From the NCBI GenBank assembly GCA_028278625.1, contig JANQDY010000172.1, forward strand, positions 1-40,121: DNA of 40,121 nt, written 5' to 3'. The notes below the pieces were generated by a model that saw nothing but the letters and a program-made list of their open reading frames with translations, searched no databases and was not told the DNA's origin. The stretch comes from Thermodesulfobacteriota bacterium. GTDB lineage: Bacteria > Desulfobacterota > DSM-4660 > Desulfatiglandales > Desulfatiglandaceae. A program made the translations under genes and the position numbers. Shown piece by piece: positions 1,324 through 32,879 of this stretch (within the stretch, counting starts at the first letter, position 1; every line of letters starts with the position of its first letter).

Positions 1324-2054
1324 CTACGCTGCTTCGCCAGGGGCTTCGGAAAATGATGGGGGAAGGGCCTTATGGTTTGCGCCTTTTGTGAGATGAACCA
1401 TCTGCTCAGCACCATCTGTAATCCTTTTACCGGCACCGGTAACCAGTGCAACAAGATTTTCAACCATCCTTTTCATTTCTTCGGATTGTGCGCTCAATTC
1501 CTCTGACGCGCTTGCCGACTCTTCCGCATTAGCGGCGTTTTGCTGGACAACCTTGTCCATCTCCACCACCGCCTTGTTGATCTGTTCGATCCCTTGGGCG
1601 TGCTCATTGGATGCGGCAGCGATTTCTCCCACCAGTTCTCCGATTTTGCCGGCACTTTCCGCAACCTGCGCAAATGCTTCGCTGGTCCCGTGAACCAGAT
1701 CCGATCCGCCGTTGACTTTTGTCACGGTCCCTTCTATCAGATCAGCGGTGTTTTTGGCGGCATCCGCCGCGCGCATGGCAAGGTTTCTCACTTCGTCCGC
1801 CACAACAGCGAACCCGGCGCCTGCCTCTCCGGCCCTGGCCGCCCAACTGCCGCGTTTAAGGCCAACAGATTGGTTTGAAAAGCAATGTCATCAATGGTTT
1901 TGATGATCTTGGATGTTTCGTCGCTGGCTGCGGTGATGTCCCGCATGGAAACGGTCAGATCCCCCATGGATTTCATTGCCTGCCCAACCACCCGGTTGGT
2001 TTCTTTCATGAGGTTGTCCGCTCCAAGGGCGTTTCCGGCGTTCTGTTTTCTCAT
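1324..2054 (-). pseudogene. methyl-accepting chemotaxis protein remnant, truncated and frameshifted
   Basis: The conserved signalling hairpin of a chemoreceptor is present in two frames. The upstream piece has IDDIAFQTNLLALNAAV and the downstream piece has VADEVRNLAMRAADAAKNT, followed by the descending helix (QSEEMKRMVENLVALV). Between them the usual Glu codon after NAAV has lost one base: reading GTT-GAG-GCG-GCC, the sequence shows GTT-GGG-CGG, at about 1842-1845. Restoring one base gives an uninterrupted AARAGEAGAGFAVVADEVR tip. Periplasmic, membrane and HAMP domains are missing. The frame is open only a few codons before the first Met at 2054, which aligns with the middle of the ascending helix. 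So the gene is broken twice, unless the one-base change is a sequencing error; the 5' loss would remain either way. Confidence 0.85.
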
Positions 2055-2849
2055 CCCATAACCTGATCCGAAATCGCTATATAAACAGTCAAATATCTGA
2101 CACCGGTTATCTCAAGCTGTTCAACTCAATTCCCTGATTCCCGTTCTTTTTTCCCCCGTTGCGAGATTCTTTATTGACTGCTTTGTTTGCTTTTGTTTTT
2201 CTGAATTCCTCATCAAATGGCGCAAGAACAGCGAATCAAAGGACCTATCTCTTGAAAATCGATGCTTGCCCCTTTTCCAATCCATGACAGTTGGGGAACA
2301 AGAACTCCCATCGCTCTTGCACGTGGATAATACAAATAGCGTGCCAAAGGAGCAAGGCTCCCAACTTTTGAATAATTGGAAGTAATTTCCAGTTGAAATA
2401 TAGCAAAAGGGTAAGGTTTAAGTATAAATGAAACGGAAGAATGGTCAAAAGGCAAGACAATGAACCGCAGTCCGGAACAAACGGACCGCATCCGAAAAAA
2501 TCGGACAGGCTGATCCGCTGGAAATAAGGCCTGCAAATAGGTCTGATACATCCGTTGAGGAGTAGACTGTTTGAGAGGCGCAAATCACCGCCATCCTCTT
2601 GCACGGCGGTTTTGTGCCCTGGATTCTGTTCCATGATCTTCGTGTAGCCAGGTTCAAGGAAATGTTGTAGAATGGAATCATGCGATACCGAGACCTCACC
2701 TTGGTCAACATCTCGCCACTGTTTTTCTCGCTTCCATCTACTGTCTCATTGTCGGCAAATCCAGGTGGTCCCCATTCTTCGGGCAATCCATAAAGGAGAG
2801 AATAGGCACATCCATTTTAAGCTGATTTCCATTTAGGAGGTTGAATCAA
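2055..2849. other. 795-base gap without a recognisable gene
   Basis: No reading frame here resembles a protein I know. Three overlapping minus-strand frames (2213-2786) lack a ribosome site and have the odd composition of chance frames. A small hairpin, GGAGC-AAG-GCTCC, lies near 2348-2361. The part up to about 2200 is T-rich. The last 20 bases hold the AGGAGG ribosome site for the next gene. The upstream half may be what remains of the region that once held the 5' end of the chemoreceptor. Confidence 0.5.
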
Positions 2850-4850
2850 ATGAAGACGGCAATCGTGGTTCTAATGTTGATTCTCCCTGTTGCAGCGGCG
2901 GATGCCCAGATCTCCTATTGGACGGAATCGGCCACGGTCAAAATACGCCCCTCGGACCTCCCTAACACGACACGATCCGTCAATATAAAAGCGGCAAGGA
3001 ATGAATATGAATCCTTTCAGGTGGCAGTTCAAGGGACCGAAGCCCTCACCATAACGGATATATCGGTTACCGATCTGACACAGAATTCACTCACATTCTC
3101 AAAAGACAACATAAAGATATATCGTGAGGGCTACATTGAAATTGTCACCCCTTCCAATCTTGAAGGGAGCACCGGTCCTTGGCCGGACCCCTTGATCCCC
3201 AAGAAGGATGTTTTCTTTAACGAAACCAGAAATGCCTTTCCCGTCACAGTGCCGGCGGGCCGGAATCAGGCGTTCTGGTTTGATATCTTCATTCCCCTCT
3301 CCACCGGGAGCGGCACGTATACCGGTGAATTGACCGTTACCGCAAAAGACCACCCGCCCATAGACATCCCTTTGACGCTAACCGTCTGGGGGTTTAGAAT
3401 CCCCGCCACATCAAGCCTGATCAGCGCCTTCGGGTTTGACGGTTGGGACTTTCAACTGGGTCACTTCGGCGATTTAGAGCATTATGATCAGACTGTGCCC
3501 CTGAGCCGGCTTTATGCCCAGGCGGGCCTCATGAACCGCTTGACCCTCAGCAGCGTCACAAAAGAAGACTGGTCCATATTGTGGCCGGAACCCCCCAACA
3601 TTGATTGGACGGAATTCGACGCCAACTGGGGACCGTTCTTCGATGGCATGGATTTGCCATTCGGACCCAAAAATGCCCGGTTCACATCCCTTGAGACGGT
3701 TAATTCGGGGGACACTGACCCGGAAAGAATCGCTTTCTGGCAGAGCTTTAGTTCCCATTTCAAGGAAAACGGATGGTTTCATCTCTTGGTGAACTACACC
3801 TGGGATGAACCCAATGATGCAGGGGATTTCGCGGAAATCAAACGGATCTCTCATCTCGTCCACCAGGCCGACCCGGAATTGCGAACCCTGGTTACCACGG
3901 ATATTCAACAGGGAGAGACCCATGACATCGTCGATGATGTGGATGTCTGGGTCCCTCTCATCAATTTCATGGACAACAAGCCGGGAGAGACCTGCTGGCA
4001 ATCGCCATACGCCGGCAACCAGCGGGATCTCTACACCCCCTTGATCACAGCCGGAGATGAACTCTGGTGGTATCAGTCGTGCATGAGTCACGGGTGCGAC
4101 GGCTCTGATTCATCCTCTCCCTGCTATACCGGCTGGCCCAGCTACATGATCGATATCCCCGCCATCTACAACCGCATCATGGAATGGGAGAGTTTTAAAT
4201 ACGCAGTATCCGGAGAGCTCTATTTTGAGGTCACATGGGCCTACAAGGGCATATCCGGCAATAAGGACGCCTGGAACAATCAGTATTATTTCGGTGGAAA
4301 CGGAGACGGGACCCTCTTTTATCCGGGCAGACCGGACAAAATCGGCGGCACCCGTCACATACCGGTGGAGAGCATCCGGCTGAAGATGATCCGGGAGGGG
4401 ATGGAAGATTATGAATACATGAAAAAGCTGAAAGACCTTGGAGAGACGGGCTTTCTTGACCAGCAGCTGGCAACGGTTGTCACCAATGCCCATACCTTCA
4501 CTCACGATCCTTCTCTTTTGTACCGGGTGCGTGAAGGCATGGCTGAAAGAATCATTGCCGTAAACGGTCAAGCTACCCTCTATGTTGAGACCGAAGGCAT
4601 CTGCGGCGGGAATCAGCCGTGCCACGCAACCATACAAGGTGCCATTAACATGGCGAAATCGGGTGCAACCATCAAGATTGCCGGGGGACGTTATCCCGAG
4701 AGCATCACATTGGACAAAGAGATCAGTTTAAGTCTTCAGGGAGACTGGAATACGTCTTTTACCCAACAGAAACCCCAAACGACCATATTTGAAGGGATTA
4801 CGGTTCAGGCAGGTACCCTGACCCTTCAAAACCTGATTCTCAGGCCCTAA
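2850..4850 (+). CDS. secreted GH123-like (DUF4091) protein with short beta-helix tail
   Basis: A 666-residue exported protein. The start is ATG 2850, nine bases after AGGAGG; the TTG at 2841 directly touches that site and is unlikely. Residues 1-20 form a signal peptide ending ADAQ. An N-terminal beta-sandwich (about 21-185) is followed by a glycosidase-like barrel. The barrel carries W-D-E-P at 318-321, which matches the acidic pair of GH123/DUF4091 enzymes, and the family's closing helix (REGMEDYEYMKKLKDLG, about 513-530). From about residue 575 a different segment begins (IQGAINMAKSGATIKIAGGRY), typical of the first turns of a parallel beta-helix, but it stops after roughly 90 residues. 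Substrate is unknown; GH123 enzymes act on beta-N-acetylgalactosaminides, while most DUF4091 members are uncharacterised. Confidence 0.7.
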   Translation: MKTAIVVLMLILPVAAADAQISYWTESATVKIRPSDLPNTTRSVNIKAARNEYESFQVAVQGTEALTITDISVTDLTQNSLTFSKDNIKIYREGYIEIVTPSNLEGSTGPWPDPLIPKKDVFFNETRNAFPVTVPAGRNQAFWFDIFIPLSTGSGTYTGELTVTAKDHPPIDIPLTLTVWGFRIPATSSLISAFGFDGWDFQLGHFGDLEHYDQTVPLSRLYAQAGLMNRLTLSSVTKEDWSILWPEPPNIDWTEFDANWGPFFDGMDLPFGPKNARFTSLETVNSGDTDPERIAFWQSFSSHFKENGWFHLLVNYTWDEPNDAGDFAEIKRISHLVHQADPELRTLVTTDIQQGETHDIVDDVDVWVPLINFMDNKPGETCWQSPYAGNQRDLYTPLITAGDELWWYQSCMSHGCDGSDSSSPCYTGWPSYMIDIPAIYNRIMEWESFKYAVSGELYFEVTWAYKGISGNKDAWNNQYYFGGNGDGTLFYPGRPDKIGGTRHIPVESIRLKMIREGMEDYEYMKKLKDLGETGFLDQQLATVVTNAHTFTHDPSLLYRVREGMAERIIAVNGQATLYVETEGICGGNQPCHATIQGAINMAKSGATIKIAGGRYPESITLDKEISLSLQGDWNTSFTQQKPQTTIFEGITVQAGTLTLQNLILRP

Positions 4851-5341
4851 ACCGTTTCCAAATGTGAAAGGCGGGAAATGAATATCTAATCCCCGCCGCA
4901 ACCACCGCTGTGAATCTCCCCATCTATGCAAACGGTCTCGAAGACTGAGAGGTTTGTTTCCGGGTCTACCGCTCTAATCGGCCCAACACGTCAGGCCGCA
5001 CCGCGTGTCCTTTTGCGTGAAGCGCGGCCTTAATGCCGGTTCTTCAAAAAAGGATCGGGTCCCGGGAAATCCGCACGGGCCCATCGTGGTAAAAAAATTG
5101 CAAAACATTTACGATTTCATGAAGGGTTCCAGATAATCGCTTTACGAACGGATGATAATCTCCCTTTTAAACATTCGACGGTTGCCACACCCCGCCAGTC
5201 GGAAAACACGCATGATAGAGATTTACGATTCATTTGATTTCCTACAGTTAATCGAGTAGGGTTGTTTAAGAGGAGAGGCAGGGAAGCATTCTTGGGCTTT
5301 TCCAATGTTTTTTGCCGTCACCAAAGCGAAGGAGTGAACAC
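4851..5341. other. 491-base gap; two weak hairpins, no gene seen
   Basis: No convincing coding frame. Two modest inverted repeats are visible: GGCGGG (4870-4875) with CCCGCC (4892-4897), 20 bases after the GH123-like gene, and AGGCCGC (4993-4999) with GCGGCCT (5024-5030). Neither is followed by a T-run, so neither is a good intrinsic terminator. The last 15 bases hold the ribosome site of the next gene. Confidence 0.5.
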
Positions 5342-5770
5342 ATGCGCATTTTGATAACAACCATTTCGGCCTTTTTCTGTTTGGCCCTGGCTGCGGGTCC
5401 CGCATGGGGGGATGTTACCGCCGACATTAGCATCTACGTGGAAAACGACGACTATGAAAGCCACCCGTTTTTATTGAGTAATAGCCTTGAAAAATACAAG
5501 ACCGTGGATTCGGGCGATACCTATCACTATAGCCATGCCGACATAGCCTATTGGCTGGTTGATACAACTTATACCTACTTTCTGACCGTGTACGACCACT
5601 CAGGCGATTATGAAATCTGCTATACTGAGATAACGTTTACAATTTCCACCCTCTTCGGCACGGCGATTGTGGCAGATTGCTCCGCCACCAGTTTCCAAAC
5701 CGACGGGTGCTCGTTGGACTATTCCACAAGTGGGACCACCTGCAATGTTACGGCGACCATAAACGACTGA
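5342..5770 (+). CDS. small secreted cysteine-patterned protein, copy 1
   Basis: A 142-residue protein of unknown function. ATG 5342 is chosen because GAAGGAG precedes it and a signal peptide (MRILITTISAFFCLALAAGP, then AWG-D) starts there. The mature part is acidic, rich in Tyr and Thr, and probably all beta. It contains four cysteines at 93, 113, 123 and 134. From Cys93 onward it matches the protein encoded just downstream: Cys-x9-TLF, then Cys-x9-Cys-x10-Cys with shared residues around each Cys (C.AT, G.TC.V, TI at the end). The two genes are therefore diverged tandem duplicates. Location is expected to be periplasmic or extracellular. I do not recognise a named domain. Confidence 0.7.
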   Translation: MRILITTISAFFCLALAAGPAWGDVTADISIYVENDDYESHPFLLSNSLEKYKTVDSGDTYHYSHADIAYWLVDTTYTYFLTVYDHSGDYEICYTEITFTISTLFGTAIVADCSATSFQTDGCSLDYSTSGTTCNVTATIND

Positions 5771-5874
5771 ATTCCGACGTCCGGAATCCGTGAAAATGGA
5801 TCTCGCGGACGCCGATGAAGGACCGTTGCCACGTTCAGCAACATTTTGATTGTAGATTTATCAGGGAGGATGAA

Positions 5875-6471
5875 ATGCGATTTTTAGTGATTTTAGCCGC
5901 AAGCCTTTTGTGTCTGGCCCCATGCAAGCAGGGGATAGCCTCGGAAACCGGAGCGGGTCCATCTGAACAAGGGAGTTCCTGGAAGCCCGGCCCGGTAAGG
6001 GTCCATAACCGGTTTCCCACCATTACCGTCATCAACGACACGGAGAAGACCCATTATGTGGATGTGGATTACGCCCGTGGTTTTAAGAGACTGCAAATCG
6101 GCGGCAAGGTCCAAGTGGACAAAATTGTATATGACGGCAAGACATACGAGAGCGTGACGACCGGAAAGGTCATTCACAAAATTACTTTCAATCCCCCTCC
6201 CCCTTCCAGAAAACCTTTTCTGGAGGACATCCACCGGTACGAAATTGCCGTCTACGAAAAGGGGAGCGAGGAAAAAATGTGTTCCTCCATTATTCGCGTG
6301 GCCCCCGGAACCCTCTTCTCGGGCCCCTCAGCTTCGGACGGGGCCGGCACTGAAACCAGTTTCGTGGGCGAGGGGAATTGTATCGCCACCGTGCCTCAAA
6401 ACAGCGCCTGCACAATGAAAGCCAAAGCCTTCGGCCCCACCTGCCAGGTGGAGCTCACCATCTCCGAGTGA
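5875..6471 (+). CDS. small secreted cysteine-patterned protein, copy 2
   Basis: A 198-residue exported protein of unknown function, paralogous to the preceding gene. ATG 5875 follows GGGAGGA with good spacing; an ATG 60 bases upstream has no such site. The signal peptide is MRFLVILAASLLCLAPCKQG. The N-terminal part has an extra low-complexity linker and a charged beta-rich region (YVDVDYARGFKRL) not found in copy 1. The C-terminal 75 residues keep the pattern: Cys136-x9-TLF, then Cys169-x9-Cys179-x10-Cys190 and a closing TISE where copy 1 has TIND. The equal spacing suggests conserved disulfides or metal ligands, which is inference. A clear terminator follows 45 bases later, so the two genes probably share one transcript. 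Confidence 0.7.
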   Translation: MRFLVILAASLLCLAPCKQGIASETGAGPSEQGSSWKPGPVRVHNRFPTITVINDTEKTHYVDVDYARGFKRLQIGGKVQVDKIVYDGKTYESVTTGKVIHKITFNPPPPSRKPFLEDIHRYEIAVYEKGSEEKMCSSIIRVAPGTLFSGPSASDGAGTETSFVGEGNCIATVPQNSACTMKAKAFGPTCQVELTISE

Positions 6472-13459: not shown

Positions 13460-13636
13460 ATGGATCTGAATTTAGTGGAATCTCTGGCAAGAGAGCGGCA
13501 GCGCCGAATATCTGAGGCGTCAAGGCGAATTCAAACATCTCAAACAACCGAAAAAGGGGGAATGGCATTCCTAAGGAAGCTCTTGCGCGGATTCGGCATT
13601 CATTTTTCAAAAGGGGTATGTGCAGCCGAAAAATGA
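13460..13636 (+). CDS. 58-residue basic protein, first gene of the sigma-54 cassette
   Basis: Unknown function. ATG 13460 is chosen because AGGAGG ends nine bases before it and it lies downstream of the predicted sigma-54 start point; an in-frame ATG at 13388 sits inside that promoter. The N-terminal half is a charged helix (VESLARERQRRISEASRR) with strong coiled-coil or amphipathic character. The C-terminal part is basic with one Cys near the end. There is no signal peptide or membrane helix. Its TGA overlaps the next gene's ATG as ATGA, which indicates translational coupling. Confidence 0.55.
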   Translation: MDLNLVESLARERQRRISEASRRIQTSQTTEKGGMAFLRKLLRGFGIHFSKGVCAAEK

Positions 13637-13932
13637 GTAAACGGATGAAATGGATAGAAGTAATACAGCTGAGGTCCCTGAACCGCAACCGGAAAAGCCT
13701 TGCGTCAACACTTAAAAGACTGATGAGGGAAGTGGAAGCGGAAAACAAGGGACAGTCGGTCAAGATTTACGGCCGGGAGAGGATCGATACCGATTTCTCC
13801 ATCGTTCTGTTTAGCCGTGCGGAAAAAAGACAAATAGGCGGAAGTGCGCTGGGCCTGGCCCTTGCCGATGCCTTAAAAGCGTTTGGCATGGTTCGTCACA
13901 CCGTATGGCTTGAGATGGAAGAGGAAATATGA
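13633..13932 (+). CDS. 99-residue conserved-looking protein of unknown function
   Basis: The ATG at 13633 overlaps the stop of the previous gene (ATGA), and its own TGA overlaps the next ATG at 13929 in the same way, so it is embedded in a coupled operon. The product begins MSKRMKWIEVIQLRS, has a central helix rich in Arg, Lys and Glu, then YGRERIDTDFSIVLFS, a Gly-rich turn (IGGSALGLALADALKAFG) and ends with HTVWLEMEEEI. The alternation of strands and helices looks like a small alpha/beta ferredoxin-like fold, by eye only. I do not recognise a named family. No cysteines, signal or membrane segment. Confidence 0.6.
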   Translation: MSKRMKWIEVIQLRSLNRNRKSLASTLKRLMREVEAENKGQSVKIYGRERIDTDFSIVLFSRAEKRQIGGSALGLALADALKAFGMVRHTVWLEMEEEI

Positions 13933-14369
13933 CGCTTAAGTCAAAATGGATTGAGACTATCTACTGCCTGGCCACAAGCAGCAGGGGCGTCCGGAACTTC
14001 TTTACGCCCCTGAGAGCGATATTCTACGGTCTGCTGATATTCGCTTTTGTCCTGATGGGGCGCTATTTGGACCACAGGCTTGGTTTGGGGGATTTGTTTC
14101 CGCGGGCAATCGGAATCCCCCTTTCCTTGCCCCTTTTTCTTCTGGCCTTACTCCTCATCGGTTGGTCGGTTCATCGCTTTTTTAAGGCAAGGGGGACCCC
14201 GGTTCCTTTCAACCCGCCAAACCGGCTGGTGACGTCCGGTCCATACGCCCATAGCCGGAATCCCATGCTTAGCGGCGTGTTTTTTCTGCTTTTCGGTATG
14301 GGCGCATTTTTGGGCTCAATCTCTTTATGTTTGATATTTACGCCCCTTTTTATTTTGCTCAATGTCTAG
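13929..14369 (+). CDS. isoprenylcysteine/phospholipid methyltransferase-like membrane protein, cut by in-frame TAG
   Basis: 146 residues up to a TAG at 14367-14369. Membrane helices lie at about 27-45, 58-80 and 110-145. The middle carries the ICMT/PEMT signature (GTPVPF, RLVTSGPYAHSRNPMLSG), whose SGPY-x-x-x-RNP motif binds S-adenosylmethionine. In this family the catalytic C-terminal piece is a Glu-Pro-Glu-Leu...Phe/Leu-Gly...Tyr...Pro segment. That piece is present after the TAG, in the same frame: KEPELIKRLGREY, then RERTPMFFP. No further stop occurs before the next gene's ATG, so the frame runs on into it. The annotated product thus lacks part of its active site unless the TAG is read through or is a sequencing error. 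Start overlaps the previous stop (ATGA). Confidence 0.8.
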   Translation: MTLKSKWIETIYCLATSSRGVRNFFTPLRAIFYGLLIFAFVLMGRYLDHRLGLGDLFPRAIGIPLSLPLFLLALLLIGWSVHRFFKARGTPVPFNPPNRLVTSGPYAHSRNPMLSGVFFLLFGMGAFLGSISLCLIFTPLFILLNV

Positions 14370-14486
14370 GAGGTAAAAGCCATCAAGGAACCGGAGCTGA
14401 TAAAAAGGCTTGGGCGGGAATACGTTCTATATCGAGAGCGCACCCCCATGTTCTTTCCAAATCCTTTTTGTCCCAGGGAGGTTGTA

Positions 14487-15359
14487 ATGCGCAAGGAAAA
14501 ACCGAGCCGAACGGCGCTTAAGGTGGCGCTCAATATGGTAACTCTTTCAGCAAAGCAGGGAATGGATGAATGCTTTCCACCAGGCACCGTGGAAGCCACG
14601 GAGAAATTACTGGCCGCCGCCGGCCTTGTCAGCCAAAGAACCTTACGATGGTGCCGTTCCAGATGGATGGTTTCCCTGTACGAGTCTTTTGACTGGATGC
14701 TGCCGGGTCAGTTCGAGGCATTTGCGCTGAGGAAGGCGTTCTGTGAAAAGCAGGTAAGAGCTGGCATACAAAAAGGTGCCAGGCAGATCCTTGTCCTGGG
14801 AGCCGGCTACGACACCATGGCGTGGCGATTGGCACCGGAATTCCCTGAAGTGAGATTCTTTGAAATCGATCACCCGGCCACCGCCCGCATAAAAATAAAG
14901 GGAATCGAGGCCATGGGGCGGCGGGAAAATCTCTATCTGATTGCAGAGGATCTCGGCAAACAGAGGCTGACGGATGTCCTGGCCGTGGGCCAATGGGATG
15001 GATATGCACAAACCGTTGTCGTGGCCGAAGGCCTGGTGATGTATCTTTCTCCCGATGCGGTGGAGGGTCTGTTTCTCCAATGTGCCGAGGTTACAGGTTC
15101 AGGCAGCCGGATGGCCTTTTCCTATATTCCGGCCGGCGCGGACGGCCGTCCGGATGCCGGCCCATGGACCGGCTTGATGCTGTGGCTTCAGAAAGCCGGC
15201 GGAGAGCCATGGCGCTTTAGCATAACACCCGAGGATCTCGGCCCTTTTCTGGAGGAAACGGGCTGGACAATCGCACCGGCGATGTTTGAGAGCATTCGAA
15301 AGTACGGTGTGGAATTCTACGCTGTGGCGGAAAGAAATGAAACGGGCAAAGTGAGATAG
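14487..15359 (+). CDS. leucine-carboxyl-methyltransferase-like (LCM family) SAM methyltransferase
   Basis: A 290-residue soluble class I methyltransferase. ATG 14487 follows AGGGAGG at good distance; an in-frame ATG at 14448 lies within the tail of the preceding methyltransferase and has no site. Motif I is VLGAGYDTMAWRL (GAGYD at 105-109), motif II ends in an acidic residue (FFEIDHP, Asp128), and the AEGLVMYL block is typical of the LCMT/PPM1 and TIGR00027 groups. These enzymes O-methylate carboxylates or polyketide-like substrates; the substrate here is unknown. It shares its frame with the upstream ICMT-like gene, separated only by one TAG, so it could be a separate product from its own ribosome site, part of a readthrough fusion, or both. 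Confidence 0.85.
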   Translation: MRKEKPSRTALKVALNMVTLSAKQGMDECFPPGTVEATEKLLAAAGLVSQRTLRWCRSRWMVSLYESFDWMLPGQFEAFALRKAFCEKQVRAGIQKGARQILVLGAGYDTMAWRLAPEFPEVRFFEIDHPATARIKIKGIEAMGRRENLYLIAEDLGKQRLTDVLAVGQWDGYAQTVVVAEGLVMYLSPDAVEGLFLQCAEVTGSGSRMAFSYIPAGADGRPDAGPWTGLMLWLQKAGGEPWRFSITPEDLGPFLEETGWTIAPAMFESIRKYGVEFYAVAERNETGKVR

Positions 15360-28408: not shown

Positions 28409-28460
28409 TTTCATGGCTATGTTTCATGAAATTGTATTCTTAATGCATGAATATCGTCAA
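28409..28460 (-). promoter_or_regulatory. vapBC promoter with palindromic operator
   Basis: On the minus strand TTGACG (28460-28455), 18 bases, TACAAT (28436-28431). Directly after the -10 comes the palindrome TTTCATGAAA (28422-28431), and a further half-site TTTCATG lies at 28409-28415. The spacing of these CATG sites, 13 bases apart over the start point, suits cooperative binding of ribbon-helix-helix dimers. Repression by VapB or VapBC is inferred. Confidence 0.65.
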
Positions 28461-28650
28461 GAGAAAAAAAGGAGGGGACGACAATCCCAATGCTGAAGAA
28501 ATAATGGAACCATGTTCAAGCGGCCGAAAGTCTAGCCGCATTGCGCCGTTTGACATCCGTCCCCCACGATGGTACGGTTCTCAGAATGCCGGGTTTGAGG
28601 AAAACGCGAGAGCATCAAACAGCGGTTTAGCGTTAAGGAGAGCCGTGAAA

Positions 28651-29067
28651 ATGCAAACCCTTGGTCAACAGCGAATCACCAAACTAGAGGAAATCTTCCG
28701 CAAAAAGGACGAGGTTCTTTCCGCCTATCTTTTCGGTTCAATGGCCGAAGGTCACCAAAACAGGCGGAGCGATGTTGATATTGCCGTACTTGTGAAGCCC
28801 GGGTTAAATGCCATTGATAAACACAAGATCCGAATGGATCTTATAGAATCGATCGAGCAGTTCTTTGGGCGCCAGGCGGACATTGTGGTATTGAATGACG
28901 CCTCATTAAAGATGAAACACCAGGTCTTCAGCCATGGAAAGCCGATTTATATAGAAAACGACCTAAAGGAAGAGTCGTTCCGGTTGCGCAGCCAAAAGGA
29001 GTATTTCGATTTTCAATACTATTTGGAAAAAGAGCGCAGGGATTTGAGGGCATTTTATGAATGCTGA
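28651..29067 (+). CDS. mntA: MntA-type nucleotidyltransferase antitoxin
   Basis: A 138-residue minimal nucleotidyltransferase. The active site is G29-S30 followed ten residues on by S40-D41-V42-D43 (family pattern G-S-x10-D-x-D), with the third Asp at 77 (ADIVVL). In characterised type VII modules MntA adds AMP to the HepT toxin and neutralises it. ATG 28651 follows AAGGAG at ten bases; the longer open frame from 28447 has a composition unlike the domain and is not used. Its end overlaps the start of hepT by eleven bases. All three catalytic acids are kept, so the antitoxin should be active. Confidence 0.88.
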   Translation: MQTLGQQRITKLEEIFRKKDEVLSAYLFGSMAEGHQNRRSDVDIAVLVKPGLNAIDKHKIRMDLIESIEQFFGRQADIVVLNDASLKMKHQVFSHGKPIYIENDLKEESFRLRSQKEYFDFQYYLEKERRDLRAFYEC

Positions 29068-29515
29068 AAGTGTGGGCAAATCTGTAAACCGTGAAGTTAT
29101 TGAATCCAAATTGCGATTCTTGAGGGAGTATGTCGAAGATCTCGCGGAGTACGAATCCATTACACTTTCAAATTACCGGAAAAGCAAGAAAGACCAACGG
29201 TTTGTAGAAAGAACCCTTCATCTTGCCTGTGAATCCTGCATCGACACTGCCGCGCATATCGTCTCACGAATGGGATTGAGAGAACCCCGCGACAATAAGG
29301 ATTTGTTCATAATCTTGACTGAAAACAGTATCCTTTCGGAATCGGTTGGCAGCGCCATGATCGGCATGTCCAAATTCCGGAACATTGTTGTTCATGATTA
29401 CGCCCGCATTGATCCGGAAATCGTTGTGGGTATCCTGCGAAAGAACCTCAGCGATTTAAAGGGATTCGCCCGTGAAATCCTTCATTTCATAGACACGCTT
29501 CCGTTGGAAGAATAG
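29057..29515 (+). CDS. hepT: HepT-type HEPN ribonuclease toxin
   Basis: A 152-residue all-helical HEPN (DUF86) protein. It carries the complete R-x4-H-x-Y motif: Arg108, His113, Tyr115 in RNIVVHDY. Arg and His form the RNase site; Tyr is the residue AMPylated by MntA in studied pairs. It overlaps mntA by eleven bases and is translationally coupled. The last 34 bases overlap the end of the convergent exonuclease gene. The stop is TAG. Together with the divergent vapBC it forms a block of two complete toxin-antitoxin modules. Confidence 0.9.
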   Translation: MNAESVGKSVNREVIESKLRFLREYVEDLAEYESITLSNYRKSKKDQRFVERTLHLACESCIDTAAHIVSRMGLREPRDNKDLFIILTENSILSESVGSAMIGMSKFRNIVVHDYARIDPEIVVGILRKNLSDLKGFAREILHFIDTLPLEE

Positions 29516-31537: not shown

Positions 31538-32077
31538 TCATTTAAGCATCTCTTCTCTGATCTGTTTTCCTGGCAGCTGAGACCGAAGGCGACCACCATC
31601 GTAGAACCCAAGGCCTAAGGCTACATCATTTTCCAGGGTGAGAATGACATACCCTTTATCCAGGTGGAGATCAACGCTAATCTCACCTTCCAGAACCAGA
31701 GTTTTGAGCTGCGGCACTTTCAATTGGCATACGCCTTTTGTGGCATATTGACCAAACATCTGAATGAAACGGGTCGTTGGCTTGATGAATTGACCCACTT
31801 TTCTGAAAGCCCTGAGGCCCACCTTGGAAACTTTGAGATGGGCGCCTCTCTTGATCTGTTCCGACTTTCGAAGAATGAACCAGCTCCTTTTCCTTTCAAG
31901 GAGGTGATACGGGTCAAGAACTCCGGGAGGGATTCCGAAGCGTTCCAGCAAATAGGTTGTTACCTGCAGCCGGCTTTCATCTTCGGCCAATTCTGGCCAT
32001 GAAGAATCCCACCGAATGGGTGTGGTGGGGGTAGAAACGGGCGGCTTTTGTAAGGCGTTTGTCGTATGTTTCATCAT
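31538..32077 (-). CDS. C-terminal RNA-binding domain of the NSUN methyltransferase, in a shifted frame
   Basis: This frame overlaps the end of the methyltransferase frame by about 100 bases in the +1 register. The first ~34 codons are only the alternative reading of that gene. The meaningful protein begins near DESRLQVTTYLLERFGIPP, just past the upstream stop (31977-31979), and continues through a PUA-like C-terminal domain (FILRKSEQIKRG, VGLRAFRKVG, PTTRFIQMFGQYATKG, GYVILTLENDVALGLGFYDGG). In homologous NOL1/NOP2/Sun proteins such a domain is part of the same chain. I see no ribosome site for an independent start. So this is either a frameshifted gene, a sequencing error or a recoding event. 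Confidence 0.65.
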   Translation of the reverse strand: MMKHTTNALQKPPVSTPTTPIRWDSSWPELAEDESRLQVTTYLLERFGIPPGVLDPYHLLERKRSWFILRKSEQIKRGAHLKVSKVGLRAFRKVGQFIKPTTRFIQMFGQYATKGVCQLKVPQLKTLVLEGEISVDLHLDKGYVILTLENDVALGLGFYDGGRLRSQLPGKQIREEMLK

Positions 32078-32879
32078 TCCATTCCGTCAGTCCCGGTTCA
32101 AAAGGGATTCCCAGTTCAATGGGCAGCAATTCCGCGTCCCTGTTCTTCAGCAGGAAATCCACCACCGATTCGTTTTCCGCCGGGTTGTAAGTGCAGGTTG
32201 CGTAGAGCATTTTCCCATTCTCTCTGAGCAGGTCAAATCCGCGCAAAAGGATTTTCTTCTGGGTATCGTAAAGTCGGTTTCTCCCTTTGTCTTCGCGATA
32301 GGACATTTCCCTTGATGTGATTCTGAATTTTCCTTCGCATGAACATGGGACATCCGCCAGCACATAATCAAATTGCTGCCGCAAGGGGAATTCCTGGGCC
32401 TGATAGCCGGTCACCACGGAATTCTGAACGCCCAGCCTCGAAAGGGTGTGCCCCAAAGATACGTGACGGTTGGCAAAAAGATCGTTACAAATCATGAAAC
32501 CGGTGTTTTCCGTCAAATCCGCCAGATGAGCGCTTTTACCCCCCGGTGCAGCGCACATGTCCAGTACCAGGGCGTCCTTTCGAGGGCCAAGGGCGATGGC
32601 GGCCAGGGCTGAAGTGAGTGCCTGGGGGTGAAAGTAGCCCAAATAGTACTCCAGAAGATTCCCGGGGTAAGGAAGATTTCGAGCAATATAGAGCGTATCA
32701 TATGGCCGTGAAACCCTTGTCAGCCCAATTCCTCTCTTCTTAAGAGCGGAAACCGTCCTCTCGGGCGTTGTTTTCAGCCGGTTTATTCTTAAATGAACGG
32801 GGAAGGGTTCCTTGAGGCTTTCCTGAAAACGGGAAAAGTCAGGAATCATATGTTGATAGTCTAAAAAGGCGGCCTCCAA
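31977..32879 (-). CDS. NOL1/NOP2/Sun-family RNA (cytosine-5) methyltransferase
   Basis: A 300-residue catalytic module. Motif I is DMCAAPGGKSAHLA (107-120), motif IV DVPCSCEG with Cys179/Cys181, and motif VI ATCTYNPAENE with the nucleophile Cys229. Both catalytic cysteines of m5C RNA methyltransferases are present. The likely target is rRNA or tRNA. The start appears to be TTG 32879, eleven bases after AAGGAG; no better ATG is available. Transcription starts from a strong promoter at 32927-32955. The frame ends just after GFFMARIGR, and the expected C-terminal domain follows in another register. Confidence 0.85.
   Translation of the reverse strand: MEAAFLDYQHMIPDFSRFQESLKEPFPVHLRINRLKTTPERTVSALKKRGIGLTRVSRPYDTLYIARNLPYPGNLLEYYLGYFHPQALTSALAAIALGPRKDALVLDMCAAPGGKSAHLADLTENTGFMICNDLFANRHVSLGHTLSRLGVQNSVVTGYQAQEFPLRQQFDYVLADVPCSCEGKFRITSREMSYREDKGRNRLYDTQKKILLRGFDLLRENGKMLYATCTYNPAENESVVDFLLKNRDAELLPIELGIPFEPGLTEWNDETYDKRLTKAARFYPHHTHSVGFFMARIGRR

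Follow-up and report, generated by a model that had tools for sequence, protein, structure and literature searches.

An ICMT-like methyltransferase gene interrupted by an amber codon and followed in frame by an LCM-family methyltransferase gene in a Thermodesulfobacteriota contig

We examined a reading frame on the forward strand of contig JANQDY010000172.1 (assembly GCA_028278625.1, Thermodesulfobacteriota bacterium), of which positions 1 to 40,121 were analysed and are referred to below as the window. Within this frame an open reading frame (ORF) for an ICMT-like integral membrane methyltransferase is separated by an amber codon, TAG at 14367–14369, from the gene for an LCM-family S-adenosylmethionine-dependent methyltransferase. 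The explanation that we favor, with moderate confidence, is that a nonsense mutation put TAG into the ICMT-like gene and inactivated it, and that this gene also lost its own terminator, beside an intact LCM gene; the interrupted gene is most likely a pseudogene. A codon for Trp in relatives would have changed to TAG, and translation would now stop within a long C-terminal helix, ahead of a conserved Glu-Glu pair and of later helices. The terminator that stands behind the C-terminal motif in nearly all relatives would also have gone from the window gene, and the LCM methyltransferase would be translated, intact, from its own ribosome site with its start at 14487. A nonsense-interrupted gene of this sort is ordinary.

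The frame opens with ATG at 13929 and closes with TAG at 15357–15359, and TAG 14367–14369 is the only stop inside it, as a first-pass annotation of this DNA had stated. The truncated ICMT-like ORF (13929–14369) encodes 146 amino acids (aa) and matches PF04191 (PEMT) over residues 67–142 with 27.6 bits, above the Pfam gathering score of 25; the amber codon is codon 147 and lies within the domain. Behind it the ICMT-like C-terminus goes on (KEPELIKRLGREY...RERTPMFFP; 14370–14459, with Lys at residue 153), a segment that would be untranslated or reached by read-through only, and from there the frame is free of stops through the LCM gene. With X in place of the amber codon and the frame translated further, the PF04191 match rose to 29.8 bits and covered residues 67–155, which agrees with the annotation's claim that the missing C-terminal motif of the family lies behind the TAG. 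The first in-frame ATG past the amber codon, at 14448, is the Met of the motif TPMFFP. Nine codons without a stop (14460–14486) then lie between the motif and the LCM ATG; relatives have a terminator about here, and in the window this interval holds the LCM ribosome site.

The continuity of the frame is hardly more than chance, in-frame neighbors split by one stop being commonplace in the window. Thirty-three ORFs were listed there, some without a family match, which may not be genes; with stops ignored, an in-frame continuation of at least 200 codons follows five of them (the ICMT-like ORF, a 195-aa ORF, M29, trpC and trpD), and the TAG of trpD is followed at once, without a change of frame, by the ATG of trpC. 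The sole unusual point is that TAG 14367–14369 sits within the ICMT-like domain. A stop codon that separates two methyltransferase genes lying in one frame is not, taken alone, a recoding signal.

The ICMT-like domain and its amber column

At E 0.001 a search with the read-through ICMT-like protein retrieved 879 proteins; the list comprised the best 120, of which 119 were aligned, the window's own ORF being set aside. Searching 389 genomes of the class of genome G003 at E 1e-25 gave matches in 20 genomes at 22 places, which with one further locus made 23 ICMT loci. The relatives are ICMT/PEMT-like membrane methyltransferases (PF04191), mostly of 187 aa, some of them carrying names that assign them to Desulfobacterales and Deltaproteobacteria. 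The window protein resembles them in homology over the whole domain, in identity of up to 69%, in an SRNPM-type motif and in the C-terminal pattern EPEL.KRLG..Y..YR..TPMFFP; it differs in having the amber codon at a Trp column and Lys in place of Glu at residue 153, and in lacking its own terminator ahead of the LCM gene.

The column of the amber codon holds Trp in 118 of the 119 listed relatives and Leu in the other, and in the 23 loci its codon is TGG in 19 and CTG, TCG, TCG and GTG in the remaining four. A stop stands there in none of the 119 proteins and none of the 23 loci, with the proviso that collections of predicted proteins may hide such cases, since TAG normally ends a protein. The alignment of homologous loci that had been proposed with the first-pass annotation thus gave a sense codon at this position and no stop, and it gave relatives in which the two domains are not fused. 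The motif pattern was located in 113 of the listed relatives, with tails of 7–21 residues after it, and in 22 of the 23 loci a stop of the gene's own stands close behind the motif (L043 reads further). The terminator being absent from the ICMT-like gene, the window frame would run by chance into the LCM gene.

In the model of an intact relative a single helix spans residues 131–161, and a stop at residue 147 would cut it. The top three structural matches of this model were ICMT structures, with alignments reaching as far as residue 178–180; a PDB sequence search with the read-through ICMT-like protein gave no match at E 0.01. One paper describes the ICMT fold as unknown (PMC1282579).

The 146-aa ORF ends before both the Glu-Glu pair and an RLG.EY segment, which are conserved in relatives. 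The Glu-Glu pair we take to be a defining or catalytic motif of the ICMT family, its conservation being what was observed here. Since the stop falls inside the helix and ahead of this pair, the 146-aa product is probably inactive. We considered whether the locus might instead make two products by design, a functional 146-aa ICMT-like protein and a separate LCM enzyme, with no readthrough needed. The short ORF does still score above the Pfam threshold (27.6 bits, with the threshold at 25) and retains GPYAHSRNPM, which speaks for such an arrangement and so against inactivation, but the shortest of the 119 listed relatives has 173 aa and the segments that the short ORF lacks are the conserved ones, and we regard two designed products as improbable.

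Changes past the amber codon are consistent with decay of the ICMT-like gene. All 142 aligned relatives have Glu at residue 153, where the window has Lys. Of 16 near-invariant columns past the amber codon the window departs from 2, compared with 0 or 1 in 21 of the 23 loci; the two loci with at least two such changes, L035 (2) and L054 (3), are both far more distant. The gene as a whole shows roughly the conservation to be expected for its distance (5 of 76 columns changed, compared with 6 and 6 in L045 and L046), so that any inactivation looks recent; both the loss of function and its recency are what we infer from these comparisons. Excess decay over the whole gene had been entertained, since the window has 5 changed columns and none of the 119 relatives more than 4, and was dropped, relatives at similar distance showing 6.

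The same comparisons bear upon an error of base-calling or consensus, whereby the real codon would be sense, the ICMT-like domain intact and the gene possibly reading on into the LCM frame. Several points favor such an error over inactivation: the protein cluster of the ORF consists of one sequence on one contig, that of the window; the gene shows the conservation expected at its distance; and a possible frameshift in the RsmB/F stretch at 31538–32879 would suit a contig with errors. Yet most Pfam matches in the window cover long uninterrupted ORFs, the frame 13929–15359 has no other stop, and an error at the TAG would leave both Lys 153 and the missing terminator unexplained; we consider it unlikely. 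Of the first annotator's proposal of a nonsense mutation or sequencing error in a fusion gene, the nonsense change or base-call error is the part best supported, whereas for a fusion gene neither fusion nor adjacency of the ICMT and LCM domains was found in the relatives and loci examined.

The LCM gene and the question of fusion

The LCM gene (14487–15359) appears complete. Its start is ATG 14487, and from MRKEKPSRT onward the product aligns with MRKDKPSRT... in locus L001 and MHKNRPSMT... in L002, and the sequence AGGGAGG at 14475–14481 ends five bases upstream of this ATG, in keeping with the good ribosome site that had been annotated for the gene. The LCM part matches PF04072 with 100.8 bits and, scored from 14448, TIGR00027 with 122.6 bits, over the curated cut-off of 93.55. 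The product is 71% identical to that of L001 and shows no notable difference from the TIGR00027 family. Close LCM relatives are rare (four loci in the genome scan; 2 of 395 phylum-sample genomes at E 1e-60), and their upstream neighbors differ across the loci examined.

A minor ICMT-LCM fusion might also be made if ordinary near-cognate tRNAs read through the amber codon in a programmed way. Two observations lend this something at the expense of the nonsense explanation: the frame is continuous, and in one relative, P0125 (477 aa), the ICMT-like domain is joined to a methyltransferase of FkbM type, a soluble enzyme. P0125 is one of five longer proteins holding an ICMT-like domain at E 0.001, two of which carry a second domain (the other being P0122, 345 aa, joined to a PF14539 domain) and three of which have N-terminal extensions. 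None of these five is an ICMT-LCM fusion, however, and the two genes are not neighbors in the loci examined: no LCM relative at E 0.001 was found in any of the 23 ICMT loci (2.2–3.5 kb each), and the best ICMT match had only E 0.23 in LCM loci L001–L007 and L036 (about 20 kb for L001–L004 and a few kb for the others; L005 repeats the place of L001). Neither a conserved TAG nor an RNA structure signal was seen, the RNA downstream of TAG 14367–14369 folding like its shuffles (z -0.66), and we hold programmed readthrough to be most improbable. A paper on pyrrolysine (Pyl) describes mttB as likewise having no common RNA structure (PMC3639795).

Pyrrolysine genes in nearby genomes

The amber codon could also be suppressed in a Pyl-decoding cell, where part-time reading by tRNA-Pyl would give a full ICMT-like domain and, the terminator being missing, an ICMT-LCM fusion at a low or growth-dependent level. 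The window resembles the Pyl-decoded methylamine methyltransferases (mttB and kin) in having an in-frame TAG in a methyltransferase ORF and in having a relative genome with pyl genes; it differs from them in that its ORF belongs to another protein family and its TAG is not conserved, the column being Trp in relatives. In Deltaproteobacteria, Pyl is described in trimethylamine methyltransferase (PMC8318568); no paper was found that joins delta proteobacterium NaphS2 with pyrrolysine, and one was found that mentions both Desulfatiglans and pyrrolysine.

An unnamed protein shares 88% identity with window TrpB, and the TrpB of NaphS2 shares 87%. Window TrpB was compared with 30 genomes picked for ICMT, LCM or PylS matches, 21 of which matched at E 1e-60; the nearest were G065 (86%) and G001 (85%), although a nearer genome may lie outside this set. 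The identities for the AMP-binding protein were 91% and 90%, respectively. An AMP-binding gene of G001 that was flagged with a TAG proved to have it as terminator only. As a separate observation, the TrpB match at G003:C5:9104-10342 was flagged as containing one internal TAG.

PylS was over cut-off in one of 85 genomes of the order that holds G065 and G001, namely G065, and in 5 of 395 genomes of the phylum sample; none was over cut-off in G001, an equally near relative, a contrast that makes the question of suppression a testable one once the genome of the window's organism is known. A 7,981-base contig of G065 (C19, locus L064) carries at 1699–6274 a pyl set in which tRNA-Pyl with a CTA anticodon (2867–2940, called by ARAGORN) is accompanied by pylB, pylSc, pylC, pylD and pylSn, all over their cut-offs; a search of this contig against Rfam at E 0.1 gave no match, though ARAGORN calls the tRNA-Pyl there.

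TAG is nevertheless a common terminator in these genomes. By mechanical ORF counts (longest first, no annotation), ORFs of at least 250 aa end in TAG in 27 of 109 cases in G065 (21 stretches), 24 of 107 in G001 (20 stretches) and 8 of 24 in the window. The seven window genes that had been named as ending in TAG do so, within a total of 12 of the 33 listed ORFs that includes the ICMT and LCM ORFs; but the argument drawn from them, that wholesale reassignment is unlikely, fails against pyrrolysine, because G065 has pyl genes and uses TAG stops all the same. Frequent TAG terminators therefore do not exclude pyrrolysine.

The pyl set of this near relative, its continued use of TAG as a terminator, and the belief, voiced in PMC3639795, that neutral changes to in-frame amber have happened in some genes of tRNA-Pyl genomes, all tell in favor of suppression and against simple loss of the ICMT-like gene. 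On the other side, PylS is rare and absent over cut-off from G001, and the pyl set is known from a relative, the window itself being a single contig. One MTTB-family match was found in each of G065 and G001 at E 1e-40, without an internal stop in either; Pyl use in G065 is therefore unproven. Neither G065 nor G001, both of which may be incomplete genomes, yielded an ICMT relative, a result that also speaks for inactivation. Within the gene, the amber column lies in a predicted helix and is Trp in nearly all relatives and a stop in none of those seen, and the RNA behind it shows no unusual folding. Regulated amber readthrough or pyrrolysine, which had been offered as options for this site, thus found no positive evidence in the gene, and we consider suppression in a Pyl-decoding cell to be quite improbable. 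A particular form of it, in which replacement of Trp by Pyl is tolerated and read-through also appends the soluble LCM methyltransferase, we regard as very improbable; if true, a fusion enzyme would have arisen from a chance amber codon, and its level would follow the methylamine-linked pyl genes. Inactivation of the ICMT-like gene by a nonsense change remains the explanation that we prefer.

Other features of the window

Upstream of the ICMT-like ORF lies a plus-strand ORF of 104 aa (13618–13932), unassigned to a family, whose TGA overlaps the ICMT-like ATG (ATGA). Neither Pfam nor NCBIfam gave a match to it, 58 loci gave none at E 0.001, and in a set of 12 loci its best match had E 0.12. The window holds no tRNA and no Rfam family at gathering score. 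On the minus strand at 31538–32879, two ORFs overlap in different frames, one of 300 aa for an RsmB/F-type rRNA methyltransferase and one of 179 aa whose RsmF PUA-like match is weak (E 0.0084) and falls short of the Pfam cut-off; this may represent a two-gene arrangement, or it could be a frameshift. A nucleotidyltransferase and HepT-like pair at 28447–29515 is a probable toxin-antitoxin module.
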